From: Halorubrum salinarum
GTDB lineage: Archaea; Halobacteriota; Halobacteria; Halobacteriales; Haloferacaceae
Direction: 5' to 3'
Length of the DNA: 64,000 bases
Assembly: GCF_013267195.1 (NCBI RefSeq)
Contig: NZ_CP053941.1
Span: 2,790,001-2,854,000 of the forward strand
Part shown: one piece after another, positions 16,954-17,805 of the stretch
Position numbering within the stretch: the stretch's first letter is position 1
How the letters are laid out: each line of letters opens with the position of its first letter
Translations under genes and position numbers: made by a program
The notes under the pieces: model-generated
The model's database searches: none
Told to the model about the DNA's origin: nothing
What the model saw: only the letters and a program-made list of their open reading frames with translations

Positions 16954-17148
16954 ATGGCGACAGGCAAGGTCGACTTCTTCAACGACACCGGCGGCTACGG
17001 ATTCATCGAGACTGACGACGCTGACGAGGACGTGTTCTTCCACATGGAAGACGTCGGCGGCCCGGACCTCGAGGAGGGACAGGAGGTAGAGTTCGAGATC
17101 GAGGAGGCGGACAAGGGTCCGCGCGCGACGAACCTCACTCGGCTGTAG
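16954..17148 (+). CDS. cspA: Cold shock protein (CspA family)
   Basis: A 64-residue single cold-shock domain. It has the RNP1-like segment GGYGFIE and the RNP2-like segment DVFFHM, and ends KGPRATNL. Acidic overall, as expected for a haloarchaeal Csp. It binds single-stranded nucleic acid, probably as an RNA chaperone. It has its own promoter-like element and a possible short leader. Confidence 0.95.
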   Translation: MATGKVDFFNDTGGYGFIETDDADEDVFFHMEDVGGPDLEEGQEVEFEIEEADKGPRATNLTRL

Positions 17149-17265: not shown

Positions 17266-17805
17266 ATGGAGCCCGCCGAGCTCGACGCGTTCGTCGCCGA
17301 GAACCTCGACCGCTACGCCGAGACGCAGGGCGTCCTCCCGGAACGCTTAGCGGAGTTCGGGAAGGCGTACCGGTCGCAGGGACACCTCACGCGCGAGCAG
17401 CTGTACGAGATCGCCTACGAGTCGTCGACCCGGAGCGCCTATCACGTCGAGAAGAACCCCGAGTCCCGGTGCCGCGAGGTGACGCGGAACGCCCGCGCCG
17501 CGGACGGGGACTTCTCGACGATCCACCTGATCACCGGCCTCGCCGGGTTCAAGGCGCCGACCGCCTCGTACGTGCTGGCCGCGCTCGACGGCGACCGGCA
17601 CGCCGTCGTGGACACGCGCGTCTGGGCGTCCTTGGAGCGGCTCGGCTACCTCGACGGGCGGAAGGAGTCGTTTGACGCCGCCGATTACGTGACGATGATC
17701 GAGCCCATCCGCGACATCGCCGCCGAGACCGGGCACCGCGCGGTCGACGTGGGGTACGCGCTGTTCGCGCACGACGCGCACGTCCGGGAGGGGACGCTCC
17801 ACTGA
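17266..17805 (+). CDS. Uncharacterised protein with HhH-GPD (DNA glycosylase) -like core
   Basis: A 179-residue protein with no obvious named family. Residues 92-102 (GFKAPTASYVL) align without gaps to the helix-hairpin-helix GVGRKTANVVL of endonuclease III. VVDTRVWASLERLG then aligns to the AVDTHIFRV strand-helix, so that D116 sits at the catalytic aspartate position. The distance from the position of the EndoIII lysine (here P98) to D116 is 18, exactly as in EndoIII. Pro in place of Lys would fit a monofunctional glycosylase-like fold or a non-enzymatic relative. It lacks a 4Fe-4S cluster loop. No operon partners. Family assignment is inference from motif spacing. Confidence 0.6.
   Translation: MEPAELDAFVAENLDRYAETQGVLPERLAEFGKAYRSQGHLTREQLYEIAYESSTRSAYHVEKNPESRCREVTRNARAADGDFSTIHLITGLAGFKAPTASYVLAALDGDRHAVVDTRVWASLERLGYLDGRKESFDAADYVTMIEPIRDIAAETGHRAVDVGYALFAHDAHVREGTLH

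Follow-up and report, generated by a model that had tools for sequence, protein, structure and literature searches.

A gene in the window, i.e. the whole 64,000-nucleotide stretch of Halorubrum salinarum contig NZ_CP053941.1 that was analyzed (positions 2,790,001 to 2,854,000), probably encodes a small one-piece glycosylase of the HhH-GPD superfamily, a distant relative of OGG2 that lacks the Schiff-base lysine and is predicted to be monofunctional, acting via the aspartate D116. An earlier note, made from the sequence alone, had pointed to the motif GFKAPTASYVL (residues 94-104) as a gapless counterpart of the EndoIII helix-hairpin-helix, and to D116 lying 18 residues after the lysine position, which is occupied by Pro98; this spacing was confirmed on the 179-residue reading frame. 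The features discussed below are collected in Table 1.

Table 1. Location of the gene and its inferred functional elements, numbered from the first nucleotide of the window.
Feature	Position	Strand	Remarks
Gene of the Lys-less HhH-GPD protein	17266..17805	+	ATG start, 179 aa, stop included; orthologs, AF2 model, dN/dS
Helix-hairpin-helix, residues 81-107	17506..17586	+	AF2 helices 82-90 and 97-107, hairpin around G94-F95-K96; OGG2 alignments
P98 codon, catalytic-lysine position (Lys129 of MjaOgg)	17557..17559	+	Gapless OGG2 alignment
D116 codon, predicted catalytic aspartate (Asp147 of MjaOgg)	17611..17613	+	Aligned with the OGG2 Asp
G163-Y-A-L-F167, place of OGG2 Asp194-x3-Trp198 (base reader, base stacker)	17752..17766	+	
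C-terminus R174-E-G176-T-L178-H179, stop always next	17785..17802	+	R174, G176, L178 and H179 in 87/87 rows, T177 in 86

Predicted fold and distant homology to OGG2

By employing an alignment of 32 sequences, an all-helical AlphaFold2 model was obtained (pLDDT 88.8, pTM 0.87), with pLDDT below 50 at residues 176-179. When the model was compared with the PDB using Foldseek, ranks 1-7 were all taken by OGG2 chains from M. jannaschii, T. maritima and S. solfataricus (E 8.4e-4 to 0.029, prob 1.00), with mouse OGG1 and MutY appearing after rank 7. The best match was 3knt (E 8.4e-4, prob 1.00), although the rmsd values were large, e.g. 9.4 A for 3knt_A. Four OGG2 entries also headed the VIA-align results, over 159-166 residues and with Z values of 10.9, 10.7, 10.3 and 10.2, which are middling, the program itself cautioning that values under ~13 may commonly arise with helical bundles; the next entry was Deinococcus EndoIII (Z 8.9). 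Every one of the best 50 Foldseek and best 50 VIA-align rows was a DNA glycosylase or a homolog of the HhH-GPD superfamily, and it is thus the uniformity of these lists, rather than the Z value, that carries the weight. No AGOG chain was found among the best 50 VIA-align rows, which excludes nothing. HhH-GPD, which the earlier note had proposed to check by structure prediction, is well supported as the predicted fold, since the model matches glycosylases of this type. The choice of EndoIII as reference stood only as regards the superfamily, as the nearest known enzymes are OGG2 by both Foldseek and VIA-align.

Single-sequence comparisons gave a fainter signal. PF00730, the HhH-GPD family against which a profile search had been suggested, did not match the window protein at E up to 10. 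The only Pfam family touched by all 32 aligned orthologs (E down to 5.9e-6) was PF21790, which the window protein reached with 23.7 bits against a gathering score of 27 (E 4.6e-5), over the last 61 of the 201 model positions. NF002305 (OGG2) was reached with 13.2 bits against a cut-off of 183 (E 0.042). A single-sequence search of the PDB returned abscisic-acid receptors at E ~1, which were set aside as chance matches. The 32-sequence profile met MjaOgg at E 0.84-0.93, which is not significant alone, in a gapless alignment in which the catalytic Lys and Asp fell opposite P98 and D116, respectively.

Pooling relatives made the homology to OGG2 considerably clearer. A profile of the family together with the related groups SIS and G3-G6 (described below; G7 was omitted here and from the site comparison, and the G6 rows were cut from longer frames) was aligned by hhalign with 25 canonical OGG2 sequences, selected from 30 loci by a pattern filter, with a probability of 93.6 and a score of 51.5. 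None of 100 column shuffles exceeded 19.2, and the reversed alignment scored 9.9. With the family alone, the score was 31.5 and that of 100 shuffles at most 23.8. Furthermore, a 15-sequence profile of the related groups found canonical OGG2 genes elsewhere in the phylum, e.g. in genomes G466 (E 1.5e-8) and G412 (E 3.5e-7), at the same places as the search for OGG2 itself. An unrooted tree built from 44 rows separated OGG2 from the Lys-less groups by a single, very long branch (3.15) with a support of 100/100. On these profile comparisons, we take the match to HhH-GPD to be more than chance. A non-repair helical protein that happens to match the HhH-GPD motif would account for the weak single-sequence matches, but is hardly credible when independent fold, profile and conservation evidence converge on one residue alignment.

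Active site and C-terminus

Out of 115 ortholog loci examined, 110 held full-length frames representing 86 distinct sequences, while four were fragmentary or interrupted and one had an in-frame insertion. These five were dropped, and the resulting conservation table has 87 rows, as the window protein is included twice (P0001 and L057). D116, whose conservation the earlier note had regarded as decisive, was invariant in all 86 distinct intact orthologs (87/87 rows), and so were its neighbors T117, R118, V119 and W120. The absence of the lysine, noted before for the single protein, holds family-wide: its position is occupied by Pro in 79 rows, Ala in 8 and Lys in none of the 87. No other column holds an invariant Lys, the best being K133 (83/87) and K96 (82/87), which argues against a Schiff-base lysine anywhere in the protein. 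K96 was considered as a substitute and ruled out (Lys 82, Gln 4, Arg 1). The likeness to EndoIII in spacing held for one of two EndoIII-like proteins compared from the own genome; read by eye, the distance from Lys to Asp is 18 in L108, 19 in L106 and 19 also in the OGG1-like L111. As it is 18 in MjaOgg as well (Lys129 to Asp147, PMC5069365), a spacing of 18 is usual rather than peculiar. The window protein has one Cys only and consequently no [4Fe-4S] loop, as previously noted, so that both EndoIII hallmarks looked for, i.e. the four-Cys loop and the catalytic Lys (here P98), are absent.

The surroundings of the base in OGG2 are described as Lys129, Asp147, His133 and Trp198, with Asp194 as the counterpart of the N1-bonding residue of hOGG1, and 8-oxoG is read by the carboxyl group of the C-terminal lysine (PMC3397491, PMC5069365). 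When 32 family sequences were set against the 25 OGG2 rows, the catalytic Asp was the only one of these sites that was shared (D in all 57). The Lys column held K in 25/25 OGG2 rows, whereas the 32 family sequences had P (27) or A (5) there, and the C-terminal Lys was likewise found in 25/25 OGG2 rows against His179 in 87/87 family rows. These two OGG2 counts are partly built in, as the rows had been picked by the motif G-x-G-[YF]-K and by [LF]-K at the end of the protein. The His133 column was H in 25/25 OGG2 rows and C, Y and A in 30, 1 and 1 of the family, respectively, the Trp198 column was W in 25/25 against F in 32/32, and the Asp194 column was D in 25/25 OGG2 and 18/18 G3-G5 members against G in 32/32 of the family. 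In the full table, G163 and F167 occur in 87/87 rows, while residue 102 is Cys in 70 and Ala in 15, and the Tyr of the window protein is found in no other distinct sequence. As Lys, His133, Asp194, Trp198 and the C-terminal Lys are all replaced and the Pfam and NCBIfam cut-offs are missed, the window family is not a member of OGG2 by either the residue or the cut-off tests.

All 87 rows, i.e. every intact ortholog, end in G-x-L-H followed by the stop. Since this tail looks disordered and is nevertheless conserved through the final residue, the simplest reading is that it has a function. A precedent is found in OGG2, where an enzyme truncated at the C-terminus failed to cleave 8-oxoG while lyase activity was kept (PMC3397491). 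The G-x-L-H end is absent from the sister groups, and since the intermediate groups lack it, the tail may be an independent invention. A sister branch (L063/L064), which the tree places within the family as a long branch, lacks the G-x-L-H end, with K96 replaced by Glu and the Lys site taken by Leu or Thr.

From the computed fold, the conserved D116, the missing lysine and the fixed C-terminus, we infer catalysis, monofunctionality, a role for the tail and a substrate as follows. As the catalytic Asp is kept and the Lys and base readers are gone, base removal would probably occur by a simpler one-step reaction, and monofunctional glycosylases with the conserved Asp and no lysine at this site are known. 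With the helix-hairpin-helix gripping the DNA backbone, the target base, either damaged or modified, would be flipped into the cleft, and D116 would promote cleavage of the N-glycosylic bond. The abasic site would then be left to a separate AP endonuclease; genes of an AP-endonuclease family are present in the own genome (PF01261, three places above the cut-off). The tail probably folds onto the active site, where the terminal carboxylate or the side chain of His179 may contact the base, cf. the C-terminal lysine of OGG2.

The loss of every OGG2 base reader would also fit lost catalysis, and a relative that only binds DNA, recognizing abasic or distorted sites and shielding them or recruiting repair factors, with D116 in a structural role (helix capping), would suit a gene that is missing from many genomes. 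The earlier note had named such a binding-only relative as the alternative to a new monofunctional base-excision glycosylase. Mag2, by title a glycosylase homolog sculpting abasic DNA, is moreover among the structural matches (4b21, VIA-align Z 7.4). We nevertheless hold this binding-only reading to be the less likely one, as the fixation of D116 to W120 and of the tail in 87/87 rows goes beyond the usual structural need.

Distribution, gene neighborhood and related groups

Orthologs with 70-91% identity were found at 31 loci in named genomes, the best being Halorubrum proteins at 84-91%. Among 391 genomes sampled from the class, 78 carried a match (79 places in total, E <=1.4e-86), and the family is thus widespread among these genomes yet patchy. 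In 7/7 pairs compared, dN (0.045-0.165) was well below dS (0.25-0.70), which indicates a real gene under purifying selection. The patchy distribution, together with the four broken copies and the one insertion among the 115 loci, argues against an essential role. One of these four, on a Halomicrobium urmianum plasmid (NZ_CP084092.1; 3237-5354 of locus L148), is split by an IS200/IS605 element (tnpA and TnpB) and amounts to a natural knock-out. Another ortholog, with 74% identity, lies on a contig labelled Nanohaloarchaeota (L028, 4986-5510), through either transfer or mis-binning.

The window protein is encoded at one place in its own 3.34 Mb genome. According to Pfam annotation of the neighbors, its gene follows a cold-shock domain gene (16954-17148) after a gap of 117 bases, and downstream of it are an oppositely oriented short-chain dehydrogenase (SDR) gene and top6B and top6A, which encode topoisomerase VI. 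This gene order is mostly kept within Halorubrum. Outside that genus, no conserved partner gene was found in the 18 loci compared; with genes called by an acidity heuristic, no cluster of neighbors, the gene itself aside, occurred in more than 3/18 loci, and no partner is therefore claimed. None of the eight proteins submitted matched a defense-system model.

The own genome also encodes the OGG1-like protein L111, which by eye has the expected residues (Lys, Cys, Asp, Gln, Phe), while no canonical OGG2 was found in it over the cut-off. The latter would suit a replacement of OGG2 in haloarchaea by a Lys-less version that still removes 8-oxoguanine, as would the closeness of OGG2 in fold and profile and the 64 OGG2-matching genomes, which come no nearer than the same phylum. 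Residue 102 when Cys (70/87 rows), together with Phe167, also recalls Cys253 and Phe319 of hOGG1 (PMC3397491). Set against this, L111 already provides a complete set of such residues, the Asp194 equivalent that would bond N1 is Gly in every row, and a genome of the same phylum (G410) carries OGG2 plus a Lys-less relative, making this kind of replacement decidedly improbable in our view. With an OGG1-like protein at hand and the N1-side Asp gone, the substrate of the predicted monofunctional glycosylase is perhaps not 8-oxoG.

The earlier note had described a divergent small protein, but it does not stand alone. Starting from weak matches in the class search, six related haloarchaeal groups, named SIS and G3-G7 here, were traced, and the window family is one branch of a widespread and mostly Lys-less group with members in haloarchaea and further archaea of the same phylum, on a Deinococcus plasmid and in two pleolipoviruses. 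The lysine site of groups G3-G6 is most often occupied by Pro, and the Asp is kept, with the exception of 1 out of 12 G6 members, which has Gly for the Asp. The eight relatives outside the class that were compared in this region have, as judged by eye, Pro (4), Ser (3) or an unclear residue (1) at the Lys site, and Asp (5) or Asn (3) at the Asp site. The Deinococcus plasmid protein combines Pro and Asp, and so do the G3-type relatives in the pleolipoviruses HHPV3 and HHPV4. A search of viral contigs gave eight stretches that matched a pattern, none of which was confirmed.

Some members of the group deviate in architecture or annotation. In HHPV3 (L147, 96-713), the gene is annotated from 384 with a product of ~109 aa, but the homologous frame starts upstream and spans ~205 residues. 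In L204, L205 and L208 (genomes G525, G624 and G573), a related HhH-GPD-like module is joined to a region that by eye resembles the RadC/JAB type, within one frame in L204 and L205, with Asn (FNTH) in place of the catalytic Asp. A second, more distant Lys-less relative is found outside the window in the own genome (G000:C1:2186540-2187151), belonging to G6, with Ala at the site and an acidic insertion ahead of the hairpin.

Haloarchaea are exposed to intense light, oxidation and desiccation. A possible, though tentative, extension is that the group forms a separate class of glycosylases, in which the Lys is typically replaced by Pro and the window branch would sense the base by the carboxylate of its terminal His, with a substrate other than 8-oxoG that may be peculiar to haloarchaea or their viruses. 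The family might lead to a base-removal activity, in repair or against viruses, that has so far gone unassigned. Being widespread, with the Asp and without the Lys, it would also allow a clean test of the view, put forward for hOGG1 (PMC3397491, section 2.6), that the catalytic Lys plays an incidental part. A review of repair in Haloferax volcanii names OGG, AlkA, MutY, Nth and Udg among the base-excision enzymes, and a Lys-less OGG2 relative was not noticed in the part of it consulted (PMC7776575). At the level of listings and abstracts, no literature on the Lys-less group was found, including under PF21790, 'OGG fold protein' and HhH-GPD in haloarchaea.

Comparison with known systems

Two family models overlap with the protein in part. 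PF21790, described as a putative 8-oxoguanine DNA glycosylase OGG-like protein, differs in that the window protein stays below its gathering score. PHROG 24538, a viral protein family of unknown function, is matched with E 2.8e-31 over residues 81-176, i.e. only the C-terminal part, and is matched by the sister groups as well.

The EndoIII/MutY/MIG branch shares the superfamily fold (1orp, Z 8.7; 1kea, Z 6.8), and the EndoIII-like proteins of the own genome share VDT after the GPD loop, but the window protein lacks the Fe-S cluster and scores less well with this branch than with OGG2. Absence of the Lys is in itself a likeness to MutY and MIG, which have Ser and Tyr at the site, respectively, as AlkA has Trp; Pro is not among the residues given in the part of that source consulted (PMC11754123).

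Closest of all is OGG2 (MjaOgg 3fhf/3knt, TmaOgg 3n0u, SsoOgg 3fhg; NF002305), which gives the best fold match and aligns without gaps over the helix-hairpin-helix and the Asp. Both lack the A-domain and the Fe-S loop, and both have a C-terminus that is fixed to the last residue. They differ in length (179 vs ~207 residues), in overall sequence (12-18% identity in structural alignments) and at the sites surrounding the base, where the family replaces Lys129 by Pro or Ala, His133 by Cys, Ala or Tyr, Asp194 by Gly, Trp198 by Phe and the C-terminal Lys207 by His.
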